From: Paenibacillaceae bacterium | GTDB lineage: Bacteria; Bacillota; Bacilli; Paenibacillales; Paenibacillaceae | Direction of reading: 5' to 3' | Length of the DNA: 64,000 bases | Assembly (NCBI GenBank): GCA_004134985.1 | Contig: REGQ01000058.1 | Span: 310,001-374,000, forward strand | Shown: positions 8,978 through 64,000 of the stretch, piece by piece | Layout: each line of letters starts with the position of its first letter | Position numbering within the stretch: the first letter of the stretch is position 1 | Translations under genes and position numbers: made by a program | The notes under the pieces: generated by a model | Seen by the model: the letters and a program-made list of their open reading frames with translations, nothing else | What the model was told of the DNA's origin: nothing | Databases searched by the model: none

Positions 8978-11900
8978 TCAACTAATCTCTTGCTTCCCCC
9001 ATTTGATTCTAACATTACCTTCAATGTCTCTTTCTTTTGACATCAACATGTCTAGTAAGTTAAAATCCACGCCAAACTTATCATACAATTCTTCATCGTC
9101 AATTTCTTGATTCTTCATAAATAAATTCAACTTCTCTTTTGTCAATATTAATCCGAGTAGGTTGCTTTCGATACTATTCTCATAAGTAAAAAAGTGAACC
9201 TCCTTTTTGTCAATTGAATTGTAACGTATGAATCTAAAGTAGTACTGACTCATTGTGGCTTCATTCCAGGATAATTCAGGGATAATCACTTTATTGACAA
9301 ATCCTATATTCATGCTGCTACTCAAACTCTGTTGAGTCGAAATTAGTATTCCATTTTTCGACTCTTGAAGCTGCTGGATTATCTGTTTTCGTTTATTTAG
9401 GCTAACTTTATCCCCAGTGATTACGAAAACAGGTCGGCTAGGAAATCTGTATTTTATCGCCTTAACATATGCATTGACAGTTTTTATATGCCGAACTCCA
9501 ATGGCAACATACTCATCTTCCCACTTATCAATTTTGTTTAAAACGTCAACAAATTTATTTGGTAATTGTTTACTTTGATACTCCCCGAACACTTGAGGAG
9601 CTGCACAAACTTTTAACATGAGCATTAACTGATTAAGGATCTCAAGCATTCTATCTTTACGAATATTGCCTGTTGACTTAAACAAGTGCTTCATCGTATA
9701 AAATTCTTCAATTATTCTTTTATACAATTCTTTTTCCGCTGAGTTGAAGCGACTTTTTTGCTGAATAATATCATAAATCTTTTCTCCTCTCACTTCTTCG
9801 AAGGATCTTGTTATTATTGTTTTATTGATTAAATCTTTTAAGACATCAGCGTTATATACATCTTGTGTATGTTGTCCAATACCAAAAACGGTTATTTTCT
9901 CAGGAATGTGAGATTCTGAAAAAAGTCTATATCCCTTATTATAGGCTGGAATAGGCTTTAAATAGTTTTCGTTTCTTACTTCATTTAACTTCTCTTTATC
10001 ATCCTTGTCTCTTTTGAAAATATACTCACAGTTACTTATCATATTGACACTATTATTATAAAGTAATTCGAACTGTGTCGCCGCTTCAGCAATTGTATTT
10101 CTCGTCATGGTGCCAGTCATAAGCGTTTTATACTTTACCTTTCTGAATACGCTCAAAATGGCTCTGGTGCGTTTAGAAACTGAACTGGACATGTTGTCAG
10201 CTTCATCAAAAATCAAAGCAACTTTTTGTGATTGCATTTTAACGAATTTTTTTATGAACCTTTGATACTTTGTTAATTGGTTGAGTGTTACAATGACGAT
10301 TTGGCCAGGTTGGATGTTGTAAATATCTTTTAAGGTGTTGATCCTTATGAAGTCGAATCCATAACTTTTCAAAATGACTGCCCACGTATTATTAATTGCA
10401 ATTGCAGTTGAGACTATAAAGACGTTTCTAGCTTTATTGACCTGCAACCTGTAAACTAGATTTGCAACACCTGACACACTTTTTCCAGAACCCTGCCCCC
10501 ATTGTAAAAATCCATATTGCTTTTGGAGAATTTTGTTTGTATCTTCTTTTTGAATCAAATTCAATTTAATACTCTCATTACTATTGCTATCATAGATAAT
10601 GAGGTCATCCAAGAAATTACTGATCTTTCTATTCAAATTCATTTCAGAGTAGTATAGAGCTTGTGCTTTATACTTGGTAATCTTCTTATTTAATAATTTT
10701 TTATATTTTTTATCCTCAAAAGGATAGTTATTATTTAAGACCATATTAAAGAAAGTATCTTCTTTTTTACCTGTCTTTGATAATGACAATTTCATTTTAT
10801 GTGAATAAGCTTTCAATTTTATTCCGTACCTTGTTTTTACTAATTTAATTTCATCTCTTTCTATGTAATGCTGGTTTTTCAAGACTTTCTTCAAATATGA
10901 CAACACCTTATTTTTGGTAATTCTTATTTTCATCCACTCTTCGTATTTCATCGAATTTGGTTTGACTTGGTTGTAATATCTATTAACATATTCGCGACAT
11001 TTAGCATACTTCATGTTTATCTTCGAATTTCTTTTGATGTCAAATAAATACTTTTTAACCTTAAACTCAAATTCATCGTCTGGTTCACTTTGTAGATTTT
11101 CTAAATATAGTTTACTCCGTATTTTTTCCTTCTCTTCGTAAAGTTGTTCTATGTATTTTTTAAAAATAATGCTCCCGTTCGATTCTTTAGGTTCTGTTAT
11201 AGTTAATTCCTGTCCGTTTGAATATATTGTCTCCGGTATATAATCACTCTTTTTTTGGAATAGCATGATTTTAGTTTCAAACCTTTCGACCCCTACCGAC
11301 TTAAAAGCATCATCGGGTAATCCAATATGATGAATAAAGTTGAACATTGCATTCATTTTTTTAATCATCCCTGAGTCTGTGAAATCATCAGACAAAAAAG
11401 ATTTGGGTACAATGAGCGCTAATATCCCTCCAGGCTGCAAAAGCTCATGTGCTTTCCAGCAATAATAAAATTGACTTAAATATTCTTCTTTATCCACTGT
11501 CCATTTTAAGTTAAATGGAGGATTCCCTAAAATTAAATCAAATTTAACTCCTGGTTCATAGCTCCTGATGTCTTCACAGCTTGAATTAACTTCCGGATAT
11601 AAAAATCGCATGACCTTGAATGCTTTTATATCAATTTCATTTCCGTAAACATTAGAAAGGTTGGGCAACCAATTAAAGAAGTTACCCATACCAGCGGTTA
11701 AATCTGCTATCAAATCATGCTCAGAAGGTTTTAAACAGTCAATAATGAACCTACATAGATTATGAATAGTGAAAAATTGACCGTTTTCTATTTCTTTTTT
11801 CGCTTCTGTGTAATCGTGAAAGTTATCAAAATCATTAAATGATAACCCATGTAAACCACCGTCTCCAGTGTAAGAATTATAAATGTCTTCCGCTTCAACA

Positions 11901-12004
11901 TTGTACTTTTCAGTTAGTTTATTATCAATCAAGTACAGTATTTTTTCGTTTATTACTTTTCTCTTGTCTTGAGGGATTTCAGTAGGTTGTATTGTATACT
12001 TCAT
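8978..12004 (-). CDS. Adenine-N6 DNA methyltransferase fused to SF2 helicase (1008 aa)
   Basis: Two domains in one chain. Residues about 75-270 are a SAM-dependent N6-adenine methyltransferase: SAM motif DLTAGMGNFFNWL (101-113) and catalytic NPPF (161-164). After a lysine-rich central region comes a superfamily 2 helicase: Walker A GQGSGKS (about 503-509), DEAD-like FDEAD (about 600), MTGTMTR motif III, and a C-terminal helicase domain ending in FRFIRYNS. The layout resembles phage defence-evasion proteins such as P1 DarB and the methylase-helicases of type I/III-like systems. The gene lies 8 bases downstream of the DUF4942-like gene. No target-recognition subunit is recognisable. Confidence 0.8.
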   Translation of the reverse strand: MKYTIQPTEIPQDKRKVINEKILYLIDNKLTEKYNVEAEDIYNSYTGDGGLHGLSFNDFDNFHDYTEAKKEIENGQFFTIHNLCRFIIDCLKPSEHDLIADLTAGMGNFFNWLPNLSNVYGNEIDIKAFKVMRFLYPEVNSSCEDIRSYEPGVKFDLILGNPPFNLKWTVDKEEYLSQFYYCWKAHELLQPGGILALIVPKSFLSDDFTDSGMIKKMNAMFNFIHHIGLPDDAFKSVGVERFETKIMLFQKKSDYIPETIYSNGQELTITEPKESNGSIIFKKYIEQLYEEKEKIRSKLYLENLQSEPDDEFEFKVKKYLFDIKRNSKINMKYAKCREYVNRYYNQVKPNSMKYEEWMKIRITKNKVLSYLKKVLKNQHYIERDEIKLVKTRYGIKLKAYSHKMKLSLSKTGKKEDTFFNMVLNNNYPFEDKKYKKLLNKKITKYKAQALYYSEMNLNRKISNFLDDLIIYDSNSNESIKLNLIQKEDTNKILQKQYGFLQWGQGSGKSVSGVANLVYRLQVNKARNVFIVSTAIAINNTWAVILKSYGFDFIRINTLKDIYNIQPGQIVIVTLNQLTKYQRFIKKFVKMQSQKVALIFDEADNMSSSVSKRTRAILSVFRKVKYKTLMTGTMTRNTIAEAATQFELLYNNSVNMISNCEYIFKRDKDDKEKLNEVRNENYLKPIPAYNKGYRLFSESHIPEKITVFGIGQHTQDVYNADVLKDLINKTIITRSFEEVRGEKIYDIIQQKSRFNSAEKELYKRIIEEFYTMKHLFKSTGNIRKDRMLEILNQLMLMLKVCAAPQVFGEYQSKQLPNKFVDVLNKIDKWEDEYVAIGVRHIKTVNAYVKAIKYRFPSRPVFVITGDKVSLNKRKQIIQQLQESKNGILISTQQSLSSSMNIGFVNKVIIPELSWNEATMSQYYFRFIRYNSIDKKEVHFFTYENSIESNLLGLILTKEKLNLFMKNQEIDDEELYDKFGVDFNLLDMLMSKERDIEGNVRIKWGKQEIS

Positions 12005-14628: not shown

Positions 14629-14660
14629 ATTCGAGCAAACAACACAATGTTTGCTCGAAT
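14629..14660. other. Perfect 12-bp inverted repeat
   Basis: ATTCGAGCAAAC and GTTTGCTCGAAT around an 8-base loop, between the Csx16-like gene (upstream on the minus strand) and the gene at 13827. No T-run follows on the minus strand. It could end or protect the Csx16-like transcript. Confidence 0.55.
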
Positions 14661-14677
14661 AAATATCAACTATACTC

Positions 14678-14698
14678 TGTACGCTGTACGCTGTACGC
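14678..14698. repeat. Three tandem copies of TGTACGC
   Basis: Three perfect 7-base repeats directly abutting the stop codon of the Csx16-like gene. The nearby perfect inverted repeat and the GC-richer gene make this a possible junction of an acquired cassette. Confidence 0.6.
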
Positions 14699-15267
14699 TA
14701 TCCTGAAATTGCAGTTACTCTATATGCCCCTTTAATCTGCATTTGCAAGCCCTGCTCCAGCAACTCGTTAACTGACATGTCGCTGTGTTTGGCAGCGTCA
14801 AACCCTGGTACAGTTACAGTGGTATAAGCATCGCAGTGAGCAAGCATAAACGGTGGAAGTTGGCCATATACATGCTTGCCTGCTACATCCTCAACACTTG
14901 CATTACCTGTAATAATGGGTGTGCCAGACAACTCTGGCATATTAGTAAGCAACAGATCTATAGCTGCCTGATGCTGTGTGACAATAATCACTGGAGCAGC
15001 CGACTCTACTTTGTGGACTTGGTACAAGTCCACATCAAGATCAGCAGCTAGCACATCTTCCGCTGAAGCGTACTTTGCTCCCCGCGGAATACGCGGTGCA
15101 TAATACTCAGTATATCCCTGCTCTGCAACTACTGGAGCAGGCAAAACTGACAATACAGCAAGAACGGCATCTTGATTTGACAATGGAGCGAGTTGCTGAA
15201 ACGCTGGAAAACCAAGAACAGTAAGTTTGCGGGAAGATAAAAGATCATTAAGTTTTGTAATTTTCAT
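14698..15267 (-). CDS. Csx16-like domain protein, possible anti-type III CRISPR ring nuclease
   Basis: 189 aa. Residues about 93-184 follow the pattern of the CRISPR-associated Csx16 (VVA1548) family: a strand plus HQAAID (99-104), a GKHVYGQLP stretch (130-138) followed by an alanine/cysteine helix, a TVTVPGFD strand, then SDMSVNELLEQG. Csx16 proteins have been reported as ring nucleases that degrade the cyclic oligoadenylate messenger of type III CRISPR systems, so a phage copy could switch off host immunity. This is inference from pattern only. Residues 1-90 are alanine- and valine-rich and unassigned. The start is at ATG 15267 (AAAGGAG); the 24 codons upstream are leader. Base composition is clearly more GC-rich than the neighbours, suggesting recent acquisition. 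It has its own operator-bearing promoter. Confidence 0.6.
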   Translation of the reverse strand: MKITKLNDLLSSRKLTVLGFPAFQQLAPLSNQDAVLAVLSVLPAPVVAEQGYTEYYAPRIPRGAKYASAEDVLAADLDVDLYQVHKVESAAPVIIVTQHQAAIDLLLTNMPELSGTPIITGNASVEDVAGKHVYGQLPPFMLAHCDAYTTVTVPGFDAAKHSDMSVNELLEQGLQMQIKGAYRVTAISG

Positions 15268-15330
15268 TTTAAATTTTCTCCTTTTGTACCGACTCCTTGT
15301 TGAGCCTAGTACGCTTACCTGATACTCATA

Positions 15331-15359
15331 ATTATACAAGTTTATATGTGTAAAGTCAA
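15331..15359 (-). promoter_or_regulatory. Promoter of the Csx16-like gene with SPBRE-like operator
   Basis: TTGACT (15359-15354), 17 bases, TATAAT (15336-15331). The operator GTTTATA-TG-TGTAAAG occupies 15340-15355, filling the spacer. Confidence 0.8.
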
Positions 15360-27788: not shown

Positions 27789-28610
27789 TTATTGAAGACT
27801 TATTGCAGTGTGATCAAAAACAATGTAAACAGTATGCGTCTCCTCTACGCTTATTGGTAGATCAATCTTGGAATCTTCAAATACAATAGCATCGTAACCA
27901 GCTTTCATTATCATGCTTTTCCATTCGGACATATAGTTTGCGTTGAGTAACAAGCTAGTCATTTGCTTTTCAGAAGGTGTTTCAGTTCCAATGTACTTGA
28001 ATGCCAATGGCTTGCATAGAAAAAAATCATCAAAGTTGTCAGTATGAGCGTAAAGCGGATTATGTAAGGTTACTTTTACAGTGTAAACATTTGGGCCATA
28101 CAGTGATCGTGCTTTATCTGGAGAAGAAGTAAACCAAGTGCCCAACTTGTTATAGTTAGTTACCTCCTGAGCTTCAAATGTTAAGCTTCCATTATGTGAT
28201 GCATGGAAGACAGTGTGAACATTGCCGTTCGAGTTTTCAACTTCTGCTATAGTAACTTCTTCTGTTACCGTTGAAGTGGACATGACTTCTTCTGTCTTCT
28301 TCACAGCTTTACGGTACTTGCCAATACTTAGCTTCTCTTCAATCTGGTCACGTAACCAAGACACTTCTTCTTTGACCTCTTTAATGGTCATGCTGAGTGC
28401 TTTGTTAACCGAAACTACAGTATCGCTATATGTTTTTTCATCTTCGGATGGACATCCACTCCATATTACTCCGTTGATATCTTTGATCATTGCATATGCT
28501 GCATCCCATTCAGCTTCAGTCTTGCATACCAAACGTAGTTGTGCACCTTTGTATTCATCTTTACCAGTCATTGGGTTCCAGTTACGTTCTTCTTCGTATA
28601 CAAGTTTCAT
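27789..28610 (-). CDS. Putative ADP-ribosyltransferase, ART-PolyVal type (273 aa)
   Basis: Residues about 135-273 follow the pattern of the polyvalent-protein ADP-ribosyltransferase fold: VFHASHNG (early strand), LGTWFTSSPDKARSLYG (the Y/F-x-S/T motif with a following helix), VYTVKVTLHNPLYAH, AGYDAIVFEDS, and a final VYIVFDHTAIS. Such enzymes would transfer ADP-ribose from NAD+ to a host protein or nucleic acid. Residues 1-130 form an unassigned N-terminal domain with a helical linker. The ATG follows CGGAGGATTCACA, and the gene is controlled by the operator-bearing promoter at 28654. The family call is by eye; the exact catalytic glutamate is not assigned. Confidence 0.6.
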   Translation of the reverse strand: MKLVYEEERNWNPMTGKDEYKGAQLRLVCKTEAEWDAAYAMIKDINGVIWSGCPSEDEKTYSDTVVSVNKALSMTIKEVKEEVSWLRDQIEEKLSIGKYRKAVKKTEEVMSTSTVTEEVTIAEVENSNGNVHTVFHASHNGSLTFEAQEVTNYNKLGTWFTSSPDKARSLYGPNVYTVKVTLHNPLYAHTDNFDDFFLCKPLAFKYIGTETPSEKQMTSLLLNANYMSEWKSMIMKAGYDAIVFEDSKIDLPISVEETHTVYIVFDHTAISLQ

Positions 28611-36480: not shown

Positions 36481-39084
36481 GTGGTGAATTCAATAGGTTT
36501 GGATAAGCAATATCATCTTTATAGTGTGGACACAAGCGCCTTTTACAATAATGAAGAAAATAAAATACATACTCGAATAAAGAAAAGATTCCTAATTAGA
36601 AAAAACCTTAAAGCTTTATTTTCTAAGAAAAATCATACTGAAGATTATAAAAACAAAGTAGGCAGTTTAATAAAAAGTATAAATAAGAATTTAGAATTCA
36701 ACAAAAAGAAATTAACCATCGAGTTTGAAAAACACAAGGGAGTAAGAAACCTTATTCCTGAGCATTTAAAAGCGAGGAATATTGTTTCTTCTTTTGATTC
36801 TGTATTAAGTAGAACTTTATCGATTAAACAAAATGATGTTACTAAAGATATTTTGATTGTCCAGACTTATTATTTTCAAATTTTAAAAGATATTATAGAG
36901 AATGGATTTATGTATAACAACGAGAAATACATATGCTTCACTGCTAGTGCAGGACAAATTAGAACTAAGAAAACGGTTTTTATAAAAGAAAGTGTTTTCG
37001 AGGAACATAAGAAATCTCTTATGTGTGGCTTGACTCTTGAAATAATTAACGATTTGGGTGGAGTAAACATTAACAAATTTTTAGCTTATTTGGCTCTCTG
37101 TAATAGCGCTACAGATCATTGGACGAGCTTTAATATCGAAAAATCTATCGTTGTAGATGATATGGAGACAAATGTTAATGCATTGTTTGATCATATCGAT
37201 GATGAGACTTATCAAATAAGTAGAGAAAAAAGAGAAGTGCTAATCAATCATACTGATGGCTGTGGAATGATGTTGCCTTCAGTAAATGACAAATCTTTTA
37301 TGGTTAGGTTGCCATGGATCAAAGGATTACTCGTTCCATTCCCATTTGATAAATTTATTAACGATGAAAAAAGAAAAAGGGAAAAAAATGACAAAAAGTT
37401 TTGGTTAATTAAAGATATATATGGGCAAGAGCACGATGTAATTAAAGAAGGAATAGAGGTTATCTTCACAAAGAGTCAATTCAAAATGTGGAAATACTAT
37501 TCCAATTGGGAAGATTATATTAATAAATTTCAAGCAAATAATTGTCAAGCTGGGATGTGCAATGAAGAAGAGGCTTCTATACCTGAGACTAAGATTAACT
37601 ATCAAATGTTGCAAACACTAACCAGTTTTAGTAATCAGCAGTTAAACACCCTTTGTCAGCCAACCAACGATGAAATTACTAAAATCGCTACTGATCGAAA
37701 AACAATGCTTAAAGTATTGGGTGTAAACGATTCAAGGACGAATCTAAATTATTATCAATCTGCACTAAAGATATATCCCGAACTTCTTGCCGACAGTTAT
37801 AGCAAAGAAATATTAAAACAACTCAAAAAGAAGAAAGTTATAGAAGGAAGAGCTGGAAAATTAAATATTAAGGGTAAATATACTTTTATCTGTCCAGATC
37901 TATACGCTTTCTGTCAGTTTTTATTCTTAGGAATGGAGAAGCCCACCGGACTACTAAAAGAAGGTGAGGTGTATTGTTCTTTATATAAAGAAAAGAGTAA
38001 ATTAGACTGTTTGAGAAGTCCTCATCTTTATAAAGAACATGCTGTCAGATACAATGTAACTGATAGCAGAATAAGCAAATGGTTTAAAACTAAAGGTTTA
38101 TATACAAGCTGCCATGATCCTATTAGTAAGATACTAATGTTTGACGTTGATGGAGATAAGTGCCTAGTTTGTGCAGATGAGAATATTATATCTGTAGCGG
38201 AATTAGAAATGAAGGATATCGTACCATTAAACTACAACATGAGAAAAGCAGATCCGAATCAAATTAATAATGGTGCTATCTATAAGGGTTTGAAAGATGC
38301 ATATACCGGAGGAAACATTGGCATCATTAGTAACAATATTACTAAGGTGTGGAACAGCAAAGACATCAATCTAGATGTAATAAAGATTCTCTGTATGGAG
38401 AATAACTTTACAATCGATTATGCTAAAACTCTCTATAAGCCTGTAAGACCGCCAGAAATAGATACAAAAATAAAAAAATACACTGGAAATAAGAATCCTT
38501 ACTTTTTCAAATATGCAAAAGAAAAAGATGATAAAGATATCGAAGAAATTAACACTAATACTGTAAACAGAATAACCAAGTTAATAAAAAATCCAAGGTT
38601 GAATTTCAATGATGAAGGATTGGGCTTGTTTAACTATCGTTTTCTTTTGAGTGACCCAAGTAACAAAGAAATACATATTGATGAAACAATAGTAAATGAA
38701 TACAAGAGGCTTGATCAAAAAAAGAAATTCATTCAAATGAAGCCAGATGAGTATGACACAACATTGGATGGTGCGTACATCTTTGATGTCATTCGTAATT
38801 CTATTCTGGAGATTAACAGAGATATCCATTATGTAGTGGATGTATTAGTAGAGTATCTTTACAACTTTAAAAAAAGTAATTTTAAAACAACGTTATGGTC
38901 AGCATTTGGTGATATTCTATTAAATAATTTATCAAGAAATATTGAGCAGCGGTTTGAAGATGGATACATACAATGCGACTCTTGCGGTTTAAGAATAATA
39001 AAACAATCTAATCGACAAAAGATGTGTAAATCTTGTTATAGTGTATCGAATCGAATTAATGCTAAAAACAAAAAAAATAAATAA
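36481..39084 (+). CDS. yonO: YonO-like single-chain DNA-dependent RNA polymerase (867 aa)
   Basis: Distant relative of cellular multisubunit RNA polymerases reduced to one chain. The metal-binding motif is DVDGD at residues 555-559 (FDVDGDKCL), the DxDGD signature of the two-barrel family; SPbeta YonO has the same type of motif and transcribes the phage late genes. Length is close to that of YonO (about 900 aa). The extreme C-terminus holds two CxxC pairs (CDSCG... CKSC), a zinc ribbon. The start is uncertain: GTG at 36481, or TTG at 36499 after GGTGGTGA. All downstream genes share its direction. It makes the late operon independent of host sigma factors. Confidence 0.8.
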   Translation: MVNSIGLDKQYHLYSVDTSAFYNNEENKIHTRIKKRFLIRKNLKALFSKKNHTEDYKNKVGSLIKSINKNLEFNKKKLTIEFEKHKGVRNLIPEHLKARNIVSSFDSVLSRTLSIKQNDVTKDILIVQTYYFQILKDIIENGFMYNNEKYICFTASAGQIRTKKTVFIKESVFEEHKKSLMCGLTLEIINDLGGVNINKFLAYLALCNSATDHWTSFNIEKSIVVDDMETNVNALFDHIDDETYQISREKREVLINHTDGCGMMLPSVNDKSFMVRLPWIKGLLVPFPFDKFINDEKRKREKNDKKFWLIKDIYGQEHDVIKEGIEVIFTKSQFKMWKYYSNWEDYINKFQANNCQAGMCNEEEASIPETKINYQMLQTLTSFSNQQLNTLCQPTNDEITKIATDRKTMLKVLGVNDSRTNLNYYQSALKIYPELLADSYSKEILKQLKKKKVIEGRAGKLNIKGKYTFICPDLYAFCQFLFLGMEKPTGLLKEGEVYCSLYKEKSKLDCLRSPHLYKEHAVRYNVTDSRISKWFKTKGLYTSCHDPISKILMFDVDGDKCLVCADENIISVAELEMKDIVPLNYNMRKADPNQINNGAIYKGLKDAYTGGNIGIISNNITKVWNSKDINLDVIKILCMENNFTIDYAKTLYKPVRPPEIDTKIKKYTGNKNPYFFKYAKEKDDKDIEEINTNTVNRITKLIKNPRLNFNDEGLGLFNYRFLLSDPSNKEIHIDETIVNEYKRLDQKKKFIQMKPDEYDTTLDGAYIFDVIRNSILEINRDIHYVVDVLVEYLYNFKKSNFKTTLWSAFGDILLNNLSRNIEQRFEDGYIQCDSCGLRIIKQSNRQKMCKSCYSVSNRINAKNKKNK

Positions 39085-60855: not shown

Positions 60856-60885
60856 CCATGTCTCCAATTAGATATGGGCTTTTTT
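60856..60885 (+). terminator. Intrinsic terminator just before the tape-measure gene
   Basis: CCATGTCT / AGATATGG, 8-bp stem (one G-T) with 6-base loop, then GC-TTTTTT. Strong terminator in an operon that should run through it. Confidence 0.7.
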
Positions 60886-60900
60886 GCTAATGAATCTCTG

Positions 60901-60935
60901 AGAGCAGACTCATACTACTGCTCTTTTATTTTTTC
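60901..60935 (+). terminator. Second intrinsic terminator before the tape-measure gene
   Basis: AGAGCAG / CTGCTCT, 7-bp stem with 10-base loop, then TTTATTTTTT. Only 16 bases downstream of the first terminator and directly before the ribosome site of the tape measure. Confidence 0.7.
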
Positions 60936-60951
60936 AGAAAGGAGTAGAGAC

Positions 60952-62703
60952 ATGTCAAACGATTTAAGAATCTTAGTAAATGTTGGTGTAAATGAAGGTA
61001 AATCAATTGGTGAAATAAATTCTGCAATTAGCAAAATATCTAAGAGTGACGCATTACGAAGCATAAAGCTAAAGTTGGATATAGATTCTAAAGTTATTCA
61101 AACTTTAAATGAATTTAGTAAGAACTTGAGTAAAATATCTCAAATCTCCAATACCCAGAATGCGGCTTTGAATGGTGTAACATCTCAAGTTAAAAATCAA
61201 TCGGATGCTTTTGATAAAGCAGCAACATCTGCAAGGAACTATATAAAAGAACAAGAAAGATTATCCAGAATTACTGGTAAACAGACTACAGTTTACGGTA
61301 ATCCAAATAATAGCAATAAAACTACTGTTAGTGGTCGGAGTGGTGGAATCCAGGATATTGTTGACTCCTATAATCCTAAAAAGGATTTGGCTGATCAGAC
61401 TAAGCTTGCTAATCAGATTGCTGATGGACGGATCAAAGCTCAAGAGAAATTCGAAAAAATGGAAGCAGATTCCCAGAAGAAGCGAATTGAAGCAGCTCAT
61501 CGATTAGCAAATGTAGAGAACAAGAGAATAGATGATCGGAAAAATTTAGAACGAGAATACGATCAGTTTTGGCAGAAATCTTTACATAGTCGAACTCAAG
61601 AAGAATTAAAAGTAGCCAACAAACTTGCTAGTGATCGCAAAGCACTCGAACAAAGTGTTGATGAAAGATGGCAAAAGAATTTAAAAGAACGAGAGCAAAA
61701 ACAGCAGAATCTTGAACAAGGCAGAATAAAGAATGAGAACCAAGCATGGCATCAGGCTCATTTAGAAAAAGAGAAGCGAGAACAATTCTTACACGGACAA
61801 CGAGTTCAGGATACATACAGAGCTTACAGTTTGGCTCAAGCTGAAGATAAAAAATACAATCAGAAAAGATTGCAAGATGAAATCAGTTTTCAGCAACAAA
61901 AAGCACGTTTAGAAACAAAATTAGCCGATACAAATAGAAGATTTGGTGCAGACAACAAAATAAAAACACAGGTTAATGAATTAAATTCTGCATTGGCCAA
62001 TACAGCTTACACTAAGAATTATCGAAATGCATTAGCAGATATAGACATTCAACTTAAACGAGTTGTGTCCACCGCTAATACGTCAGGATCGCACATTGAT
62101 AAATTCTCTCAGCAGATGGGTATTGCTGCTTCAAGGACAATTCAATGGGGTTTGACAATGGGTGTGTTATATGGCTCATTAAACAAGCTAAAACAGGCTG
62201 TTGGTGTCATTCTAGAAGTAGATAAGCAAATTACCACATTGAAAAGGGTAATGAACGAAGATACAAACTTCGAGAAGATGATGCAGGGTAGTATAAAGAT
62301 CGCAAATGAATTGGGTAGATCGATAATCCAAGTTAATGATGCAATGACTGGATTTGCAAGACAAGGTTACTCAGAAGATCAAGTATTGGCATTGAGTAAA
62401 ACTGCAACGTTAATGACAAACATCTCTGAGTTGTCAGGCGATGAAGCAATGAGTTCGCTCACAGCTGCCATGACAGTATTCAATATTGAAGCAAGTAATA
62501 GTATGCGAATTATAAATTCTTTAAATGAAGTAGACAACAACTTCGCCATTGGCACTAAAGACCTTGCTATTGCTATGCAAAAATCAGGATCAGTTGCGAA
62601 GACATTCGGCGTAAGTCTTGAAGAATTAGTCGGACACACAGCAGCCATTGGTATTCAAACTAGAGAAAGTGGAAGCATTATCGGTAAACAACTTGCCGCC
62701 TAA
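60952..62703 (+). CDS. yomI: Tail tape-measure protein, first exon (interrupted by an intron)
   Basis: Measures tail length and guides DNA ejection. The true start is ATG 60952 after AAAGGAG; the frame before it is leader. Residues 1-350 are coiled coil (repeated KARLETKLADTNRRF), then a TMP core domain beginning near IQWGLTMGVLYGSL and reaching IGIQTRESGSIIGKQL, the conserved motif that normally runs on as NSLKTIFSR. The frame stops at TAA 62701 inside the intron, so the rest lies beyond 64000. The SPbeta counterpart is YomI. Confidence 0.85.
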   Translation: MSNDLRILVNVGVNEGKSIGEINSAISKISKSDALRSIKLKLDIDSKVIQTLNEFSKNLSKISQISNTQNAALNGVTSQVKNQSDAFDKAATSARNYIKEQERLSRITGKQTTVYGNPNNSNKTTVSGRSGGIQDIVDSYNPKKDLADQTKLANQIADGRIKAQEKFEKMEADSQKKRIEAAHRLANVENKRIDDRKNLEREYDQFWQKSLHSRTQEELKVANKLASDRKALEQSVDERWQKNLKEREQKQQNLEQGRIKNENQAWHQAHLEKEKREQFLHGQRVQDTYRAYSLAQAEDKKYNQKRLQDEISFQQQKARLETKLADTNRRFGADNKIKTQVNELNSALANTAYTKNYRNALADIDIQLKRVVSTANTSGSHIDKFSQQMGIAASRTIQWGLTMGVLYGSLNKLKQAVGVILEVDKQITTLKRVMNEDTNFEKMMQGSIKIANELGRSIIQVNDAMTGFARQGYSEDQVLALSKTATLMTNISELSGDEAMSSLTAAMTVFNIEASNSMRIINSLNEVDNNFAIGTKDLAIAMQKSGSVAKTFGVSLEELVGHTAAIGIQTRESGSIIGKQLAA

Positions 62704-64000
62704 TGTAGTAATGCATTAGTGAACATTTTACTATATCGGGGGAAGCGTTGGGGAACGTAATCCCGAGGGAAGATTATTGTGAGGAAATAGAAAAAGTGGT
62801 GATATGGATTTTAATAAAAGATCAAAAAGTTGTTGTTGTATGGAACACTCGAAACAAAGCTGTCTTTCAAGGGTTTGGTTATATCTTTACAAGTTTTGGC
62901 GACAGTATTACAGTTGAGCTATTGGAATTGACTAAACATTCACGTACAAAAGTCAATGTTGAATGTGACTATTGTAAAAAAGTTTATAAACTACCCTATG
63001 CGCAGGCACAACGTGCTGAGAGACATTTATGCTCAAAGCAGTGCAGACATCTAATCGATAAGATAGAAAGCAGATGTTACATATGCAATATAAAGACACT
63101 AAAAAATAGAACACAAATGAATAAAAGGCAATCTGAATTTACATTTTGTAGTTTGAAATGCGTAGGTTCATATAATTCTAAAGTTAGAACAACTCACATA
63201 TCTAAAGATTGCTTGATATGCAACAAACCTTTTAAAGTAAAACCCAGTACCTCTGAGACTCAAGTAGTGTGTTCTATAAAATGTCAAGCTTCTTGGCAGT
63301 CAATGTATCTCAGAGGAGAAAGCGCTAATAACTTCAAAGGTGGAAATGTAGATCTAACTTGTAGTACTTGTACTGAACAGTATTCGGTAGCTCGACATAG
63401 AATCAATTCTTCTAAGTTCTGTTCTCAGTCTTGCAAACAAGATTATTGGAAGAATTACATTCTTCATAATGAAGCTTTCAAAAAAGCACACTATGAAGGA
63501 AACTTGAGGTGGAGAGCGAATATTAGACAAACACTTCCCGAAAAAATGGTAAGAGAATGGTTAGTGAACAATAATATTGATTTTATGCAGGAACAAGGAT
63601 TTTTTCATAAGTACTATGCAGACTTTTGGTTAAAAAATACAAATATTATTATTGAAGTTTTCGGAGATTATTGGCATGCAAACCCTCTAAAATATAATTC
63701 CGATAATTTAAATGAGCACCAAAAAGCACAGATCATAAAAGATGAGCAGCGGCTTAACGACTTTAAGAAACATGGTTTTAATGTTTTAATACTATGGGAA
63801 GATGATATTTATAATCATCTCGATAAGCTAATGAAAGACAAATTACTCACAATATATCCCCTTAACGACTACACGTAGAATACCCTAATGGGGTAATGAT
63901 ATAGTCTGAACTTACGCTATAACCTTGTATTCTTTAAGGCGTAGAGAATCGGTCGAGTGTAAAGACACTCTAGGGAGTACCGATTCCGCTATTTCAAAGG
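62690..64000 (+). other. Group I intron in the tape-measure gene
   Basis: Core pieces are readable: P4/P5 region CGGGGGAAGCGTTGGGGAAC...TAATCCCGAG (62734-62765), R segment TTAACGACTACACG (63862-63875), P8 hairpin TACCC-TAAT-GGGGTA (63881-63895), and S segment ATGATATAGTCTGAAC (63896-63911), which pairs with R to form P7. Hairpins GAATCGGT/ACCGATTC and GAGTGT/ACACTC near 63948-63988 form P9. The endonuclease gene sits in a loop between P5/P6 and R and its stop overlaps R. The 5' splice site lies near 62690-62705; the 3' site is at or past the window end. Confidence 0.8.
62748..63878 (+). CDS. Intron-encoded homing endonuclease, zinc fingers plus Vsr-like domain
   Basis: Spreads its intron by cutting intronless alleles. 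After a short N-terminal part (ITVELLELTKHSRTKVNVEC) come four CxxC-type zinc modules (CDYC/CSKQC, CYIC/CSLKC, CLIC/CSIKC, CSTC/CSQSC). The C-terminal 110 residues are a Vsr/EDxHD-type nuclease: PEKMVREWL, YYADFWL, IIEVFGDYWHAN (the catalytic D/E/H) and HGFNVLILWEDD. The start is unclear: TTG 62748 lies within the intron P5 loop; GTG 62796 is another choice. Confidence 0.8.
   Translation: MGNVIPREDYCEEIEKVVIWILIKDQKVVVVWNTRNKAVFQGFGYIFTSFGDSITVELLELTKHSRTKVNVECDYCKKVYKLPYAQAQRAERHLCSKQCRHLIDKIESRCYICNIKTLKNRTQMNKRQSEFTFCSLKCVGSYNSKVRTTHISKDCLICNKPFKVKPSTSETQVVCSIKCQASWQSMYLRGESANNFKGGNVDLTCSTCTEQYSVARHRINSSKFCSQSCKQDYWKNYILHNEAFKKAHYEGNLRWRANIRQTLPEKMVREWLVNNNIDFMQEQGFFHKYYADFWLKNTNIIIEVFGDYWHANPLKYNSDNLNEHQKAQIIKDEQRLNDFKKHGFNVLILWEDDIYNHLDKLMKDKLLTIYPLNDYT

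Follow-up and report, generated by a model that had tools for sequence, protein, structure and literature searches.

Csx16 (PF09652) is known as a stand-alone protein of about 100 aa in type III CRISPR loci. The locus described here raises the question of what such a protein does when it is 189 aa long, has two domains in one chain and is carried by mobile elements, with no Cas10 found in the csx16-bearing genomes or records searched. The window, the whole stretch of 64,000 nucleotides that was analysed, comprises bases 310001-374000 of a 467-kb contig in a 7.7-Mb genome. The gene and its surroundings (window coordinates) are as follows.

14698-15267, minus strand: csx16-like gene encoding the protein P0001, 189 aa, two tandem domains; ATG at 15267, TAG at 14698-14700
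14992-15267, minus strand: N-terminal domain, residues 1-92, a probable degenerate Csx16 copy (order of structural elements and conservation; similarity in sequence weak)
14701-14991, minus strand: C-terminal Csx16 domain, residues 93-189 (Pfam, PADLOC, profile comparison, conservation)
15331-15359, minus strand: sigma-A-type promoter TTGACT-17-TATAAT of the csx16-like gene, read from the sequence
15332-15353, no strand assigned: operator-like repeat over the csx16 promoter, with other sites at 2516, 16027, 24190 and 27674
14678-14698, no strand assigned: three tandem TGTACGC copies, the last base being part of the csx16 stop codon
14628-14641 and 14648-14661, no strand assigned: perfect 14-bp inverted repeat with a 6-base loop, beyond the csx16 3' end

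An earlier note on this DNA had credited the gene with its own strong promoter overlapped by a phage site, a GC-rich composition, a TGTACGC triplet at the stop codon and a perfect inverted repeat just beyond it, and all of these were found again. AAAGGAG precedes the ATG, and the 22-base TTATACANNTTTATATNTNTAA on the promoter occurs five times in the window at up to two mismatches against 0.05 expected, making it a candidate operator, here called operator-like. A second promoter much like that of csx16 (TTGACTTTACATATATAAAACTGTATAAT) lies at 27701-27674 on the minus strand and overlaps one of the shared operator-like sites. The inverted repeat is a possible terminator, though it has no adjoining T-run. 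The G+C content of the gene is 45.3% against 33.5% for the window; only 5 of 2115 windows of 570 bases are as rich, three overlapping the gene itself and two lying near 54.8 kb.

The window encodes members of terminase, portal, tape-measure and integrase families and is therefore probably part of a large prophage. A protein identical to P0001 is found in a viral-contig record of 217,570 bases. Other genes in the window include one for an 867-aa protein (36481-39084, plus strand) that matches Pfam RdRP (PF05183, E 2.7e-14) and presumably resembles YonO, the single-subunit RNA polymerase of phage SPbeta. A 1008-aa protein (8978-12004, minus strand), encoded 2.7 kb from csx16, combines an N6-methyltransferase with a helicase (Pfam N6_Mtase, DEAD, Helicase_C), and we take it to be similar to DarB-type anti-restriction proteins. 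An ADP-ribosyltransferase of the polyvalent-protein kind (PF18760, E 1.1e-8) is encoded at 27789-28610 on the minus strand. The tape-measure-like ORF at 60874-62703 (plus strand) stops early (phrog_4211, profile positions 194-774 of 2625). Next comes, at 62748-63878 (plus strand), a gene for a Cys-rich protein whose match to the DUF559 nuclease is weak and below the cut-off; the tape-measure gene may have been interrupted by an inserted element.

The C-terminal half of P0001 was compared with Csx16 at several levels. Pfam Csx16 (Cas_VVA1548, PF09652) was the top match of P0001, with E 0.013 and 16.1 bits under a cut-off of 25, and was matched by all six family members scanned, P0001 included, the best at 2.5e-7. 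At E <=1 it was matched in 22 of the 22 csx16 records searched; its cut-off was exceeded by all six records with a single or tandem Csx16 and by 11 of 16 two-domain records, P0001's own being among the five below. PADLOC Csx16 gave E 0.004 for P0001 and 5.3e-6 for one homologue. A profile built from the C-terminal halves of 14 family members reached a pairwise E of 5.1e-21 against six Csx16 sequences, and of 1.4e-21 (probability 99.4%) against a set of 20, made up of 18 from viral contigs and the two repeats of the pMESIL02 protein. Searches of PHROGs profiles, NCBIfam and PDB sequences gave no match for P0001 (other family members gave one-member matches in NCBIfam), and SAVED was not among its Pfam matches up to E 10. 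Residues 30-109 also matched Usp (E 0.033); seen in one of six family members, this match was set aside.

AlphaFold2 modelled P0001 on a 14-row alignment with pLDDT 91.7 and pTM 0.81. The elements of the C-terminal half (E, strand; H, helix) are E93-97, H100-109, E118-120, H125-128, E132-135, H139-142, E147-152, H158-161, H166-171 and E177-186, and those of a single-domain phage Csx16 (pLDDT 93.9) are E2-5, H9-18, H33-36, E40-43, H47-50, E55-58, H74-80 and E85-88, with a further two-residue strand at 27-28; the order is the same in both. Family-wide Pfam and PADLOC matches, the profile comparison and the matching element order in two confident models thus establish residues 93-186 as a Csx16 domain. 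The note had placed it at residues 93-184, and the segments that it named are present (VTQHQAAID at 96-104, GKHVYGQLP at 130-138, DMSVNEL at 163-169). The comparison of this part with Csx16 profiles, which it proposed, was positive for the family profile, P0001 alone remaining below the Pfam cut-off.

Conservation within the family follows the same lines. H99, G130, K131, H132, V133, G135, L137 and P138 are invariant in 14 of 14 C-terminal halves, so that every fixed residue of GKxVxGxLP is kept throughout. At the end of strand 1, SRH stands in 12 of 14 and TQH in the remaining two, one of which is P0001; position 97 is S or T in all 14, and (T/S)-x-H is therefore present in the family. Among 16 single-domain proteins, T6-R7-H8, G38, V41, G43, L45 and P46 occur in 16 of 16 and R68, the Arg of an RGxEL motif, in 15. 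The C-domain of P0001 thus shares motifs and secondary-structure order with Csx16, a cA4-specific ring nuclease (PMC12409355). It differs at position 160, aligned to the RGxEL Arg, where the two-domain family has Lys in 12, Arg in one and Thr in one of 14 members; RGxEL is our own reading of the 16 phage proteins and not a published criterion, and Lys may serve in its place.

The N-terminal 90 residues had been described as an extra unassigned domain. They are better read as a probable degenerate Csx16 copy, a reading based on element order and conservation. In the model a first helix (H6-12) is followed by E14-18, H21-24, E36-40, H44-49, E54-58, H69-75 and E78-86, which repeats the order of the C-terminal half and of Csx16 minus the middle strand-helix unit, the spacing of the last five elements being largely as in Csx16. 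The likeness was drawn from the secondary-structure order of the models. G19-F20, A22 and P61-R62 are invariant in 14 of 14 members; GF stands where Csx16 has RH, and P61-R62 sits in the loop after strand 54-58. With hhalign, the N-terminal half scored a probability of 1.3% (P 0.041) against the C-terminal half and of 0.8% (P 0.07) against the 20 Csx16 sequences. In our own profile test, the score against the C-terminal half was reached by 4 and 3 of 200 shuffles, against single-domain Csx16 by 121 and 48, and against both together by 64 and 82. It is the structural order that carries the case for an internal duplication, the sequence comparison being suggestive, and we regard a degenerate second Csx16 copy as the likely origin of the N-terminal half. 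On the model, the chain is probably a single-chain pseudo-dimer of Csx16.

Tandem Csx16 in one chain is also seen in the pMESIL02 protein of Allomeiothermus silvanus (WP_013159883, L006:8998-9783). There both repeats still score with Pfam Csx16 (97.3 and 30.5 bits), unlike the N-terminal half of P0001, and the His-bearing copy comes first, whereas in P0001 it comes second. Repeat 1 keeps TQH and has FG for RG, while repeat 2 has THQ and keeps an Arg. Both types of tandem split the pair, with a His kept in one half and a clear Arg in the opposite one, a pattern that would suit a composite active site. Precedents are AcrIII-2, for which such a site has been shown (PMC12751052), and Crn4a, for which it has been described (PMC12830947); in both, separate subunits supply the key His and Arg. 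AcrIII-2, a viral SAVED ring nuclease, likewise has two CARF-like domains per chain, though it differs from P0001 in its SAVED fold and head-to-tail dimers and is not Csx16 (PMC12751052). Crn4b is also a ring nuclease of mobile elements, in phages and plasmids, but is described as having a fold unlike any known ring nuclease and cleaves cA3 and cA4; Crn4 forms of some mobile elements have N-terminal extensions of 60-80 aa (PMC12830947). A complementary loss of His and Arg between the halves of the two-domain family was considered and rejected, as the C-terminal Arg position is mostly Lys, one basic residue exchanged for another. This Lys weakens the composite-site idea and speaks against R62 being needed; judged from conservation, R62 possibly has a role in catalysis.

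The same substitutions bear on whether P0001 cleaves its ligand at all. With the RGxEL Arg mostly Lys in the C-domain and GF for RH in the N-domain, one half-site would have lost its catalytic set and the other may only bind, and the protein could then be a sponge that sequesters cyclic oligoadenylate without cleaving it, as some Csx15 members do with cA4 (PMC13148439). H99 and the GKHVxGxLP loop are nevertheless invariant in 14 of 14 members, as expected if catalysis is kept, and we consider a pure sponge unlikely. As a speculative extension to which we give little weight, duplication of the two-fold homodimer could have led to one composite site, with His and Arg from different halves, and the loss of symmetry to activity on cA3, the signal to be expected for the NucC-like effectors that are common in host relatives. 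Phages and ICEs would then have an asymmetric ring nuclease with both anti-CRISPR and anti-CBASS functions.

Further homologues over most of the length were found at 17 places, namely three plasmid records, six named genomes, the L021 genome and seven viral contigs. The plasmids are Paenibacillus polymyxa pSC2 (510 kb), a second record of equal length, which may be the same plasmid, and P. amylolyticus pY5S7-2, where the copy was read in part as the gene runs across the start of the record. The genomes are those of P. phocaensis, P. campinasensis, P. agilis, Lederbergia sp., Lentibacillus populi and Bacillus subtilis DE0224. The P. phocaensis locus protein was found in G103, a genome of the host's own family, which places Paenibacillus in that family, and 5 of the 394 genomes searched in that family carry the two-domain form, the host's own genome included. 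Where the neighbourhood was read in Bacilli genomes, the setting was a prophage or an ICE, and the proteins of B. subtilis DE0224 and Lederbergia are 91% identical despite the different host genera. Some homologues are extended at the C terminus by about 80-180 aa. The single-domain form of Csx16 turned up in 21 viral contigs. Two-domain csx16 is thus borne by mobile elements (phages, plasmids, ICEs), with no host cas locus seen.

Among 50,697 phage records, neither megablast of 24 kb nor tblastn of three queries gave a match, although two phage genomes have Csx16 in a published profile survey (PMC12409355). At its cut-off, Pfam Csx16 matched 0 of 398 genomes of the phylum, none of the control genomes and not even the host's own genome; because that genome holds P0001, such a search misses the two-domain family and does not show its absence. 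At E <=1, 4 of 14 control genomes were matched, none over the cut-off, so weak Pfam matches prove nothing by themselves.

A search for Cas10 in 33 of the 41 genomes or records holding a csx16, six host genomes among the 33, detected none; many of the viral records are fragments, and the search did not extend to NZ_CP139199, the L021 genome, a Deinococcus plasmid and the viral contigs L046, L047, L054, L059 and L061. In the host's own genome no Cas10 was detected, the one weak match (24 bits) being a GGDEF protein of the response-regulator type, encoded about 220 kb off on the contig of the window. Given the phage-like element and the lack of Cas10, the window's csx16 gene appears to stand outside a CRISPR locus, which agrees with its earlier placement in a phage. 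The homologue on pSC2 carries the annotation 'CRISPR-associated protein Csx16', and a gene annotated type I-C Cas8c/Csd1 lies near csx16 on pY5S7-2 (L007:4056-4547), about 1.2 kb before the end of the record. Both would be in keeping with a CRISPR accessory gene left behind or displaced from a phage-carried cas locus, but the Cas10 results from the host genome and the 33 records argue against such an origin, which we regard as very improbable.

The anti-restriction gene ardA lies downstream of csx16 in 4 of the 15 two-domain loci compared, three of which are one type of ICE; the comparison would miss divergent ardA genes. ArdA was identified by Pfam in the two cases tested (3.8e-42 and 5.4e-36) and by BLAST cluster in the others. 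In B. subtilis DE0224, ardA begins 20 bases downstream of csx16, and the other neighbours are an HTH repressor, an FtsK-like protein, a Rep_trans protein and an AAA_10 ATPase; we take this element to be an ICEBs1-like conjugative element. The csx16-ardA pair is also present in related conjugative elements of Lederbergia and Lentibacillus (loci of all three hosts: L028:10007-11094, L026, L027), and on a 155-kb viral contig (L035) 306 bases separate csx16 from a downstream ardA. Directly beside the window's csx16, neither ardA nor another known anti-defence gene was seen. Leading regions of plasmids have already been reported to carry ArdA together with other anti-defence genes (PMC11541004); the main text of that report contains neither 'Csx16' nor 'ring nuclease'.

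If P0001 acts against type III immunity, its targets would be sought in the relatives of its host. Clear Cas10 was present in 26 of 197 genomes of relatives, including three of six from the same genus, with clear defined by our own cut of E below 1e-7 since matches near 25-30 bits look like GGDEF proteins. Fifteen Cas10 loci from 14 of these 26 genomes were read, and in 14 of them (L065-L071, L074-L080; tblastn) a NucC-like DUF6602 nuclease adjoins Cas10. The assignment was tested with PADLOC NucC in one locus (1.9e-74) and with Pfam DUF6602 in three. DUF6602 occurs in 35 of the 197 relatives and is absent from the host's own genome, and the Csx1 CARF family, the one CARF family searched for, was found in none of the 197. 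In a first batch, six scored Cas10 proteins have GGDD and a seventh, which looks split, was left unscored; in the second batch, the Cas10 of seven NucC-like loci lacks GGDD and may not signal. The fifteenth locus has GGDD and no NucC-like gene. Our literature search found no published link of DUF6602 to CRISPR.

NucC responds to a cyclic tri-nucleotide in CBASS, and cA3 is assumed to be its signal in type III systems (PMC7969007), so the NucC-like genes in 14 of 15 loci suggest, by analogy, a cA3 signal. As far as the published account goes, the one Csx16 tested cleaves cA4 and not cA3 or cA6 (PMC12409355), which leaves the earlier proposal of cA6 as a substrate without support. Three resolutions present themselves: a new specificity of the two-domain form, a role against other hosts, or a signal other than cA3 for the NucC-like enzymes. 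Of 336 candidate spacers in arrays next to the relatives' Cas10 genes, one pairs with a prophage that carries csx16; it agrees at 30 of 37 bases (27 of 28 in the core), the best of 100 shuffles reaching 25, and its array lies by a Cas10 without GGDD. Other spacer matches among the best 20 listed have E 7e-4 or worse, one of them with 22 of 24 bases inside a csx16 gene (E 0.002).

This inactivity of the tested Csx16 on the signal expected for the relatives' systems, the C-terminal extensions of some homologues and the 33 csx16 genomes or records without Cas10 would all fit a former ring nuclease that has been turned to an unrelated task in the element, for instance the binding of a different nucleotide or the control of phage genes. 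Against this, the invariant motif residues of Csx16 are kept although homologues are 32-41% identical to P0001, and ardA is a neighbour in two kinds of element. We consider a change of function rather improbable, slightly more so than the sponge.

The explanation that we favour, and hold to be likely overall, is that two-domain Csx16 of mobile elements serves counter-defence, as the note had plausibly proposed, by cleaving cyclic oligoadenylate, which we infer from the Csx16 family and from the ardA neighbours of homologues. A degenerate N-terminal copy fused to a canonical C-terminal copy would fold as the single-chain equivalent of a Csx16 homodimer. Cyclic oligoadenylate made by Cas10, or by another cyclase, would be bound between the two halves and cleaved by H99 of the C-domain, possibly aided by R62 of the N-domain, and effectors activated by cyclic oligonucleotides would thereby stay off in a newly entered host. 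The expected role is the same as that of AcrIII-1/Crn2 (DUF1874), a phage ring nuclease for cA4, namely removal of the type III second messenger (PMC12409355). Several observations count against this explanation: the score of P0001 below the cut-off, no Cas10 seen in the same cell, the mostly Lys position of the RGxEL Arg, TQH for SRH, the mismatch between NucC-like effectors, for which cA3 is the suggested signal, and the cA4 specificity of the tested Csx16, the lack of Csx1 in the relatives and of GGDD in the Cas10 of seven NucC-like loci, the weak homology of the N-terminal half by sequence, and ardA near csx16 in no more than 4 of 15 loci.

That phages can encode Csx16 has already been published (PMC12409355), and a limited literature search found no description of a two-domain Csx16. 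New here are the N-domain that is probably a decayed Csx16, the occurrence of one form in phages, plasmids and ICEs, the ardA neighbour in some of them, and the puzzle of cA3 and cA4. Double-length Csx16 is seen in Paenibacillus-type phages, large plasmids and Bacillus ICEs, in the last beside ardA, against 2 of 28,114 phage genomes with Csx16 in a published profile survey (PMC12409355). The NucC-like effectors of host relatives sharpen the question of whether its substrate is cA3 or cA4. If cyclic oligoadenylates are degraded, two-domain Csx16 would be a mobile counter-defence gene, and its structure would offer a way to test how a ring nuclease that works as a dimer can be remade into a single asymmetric chain.
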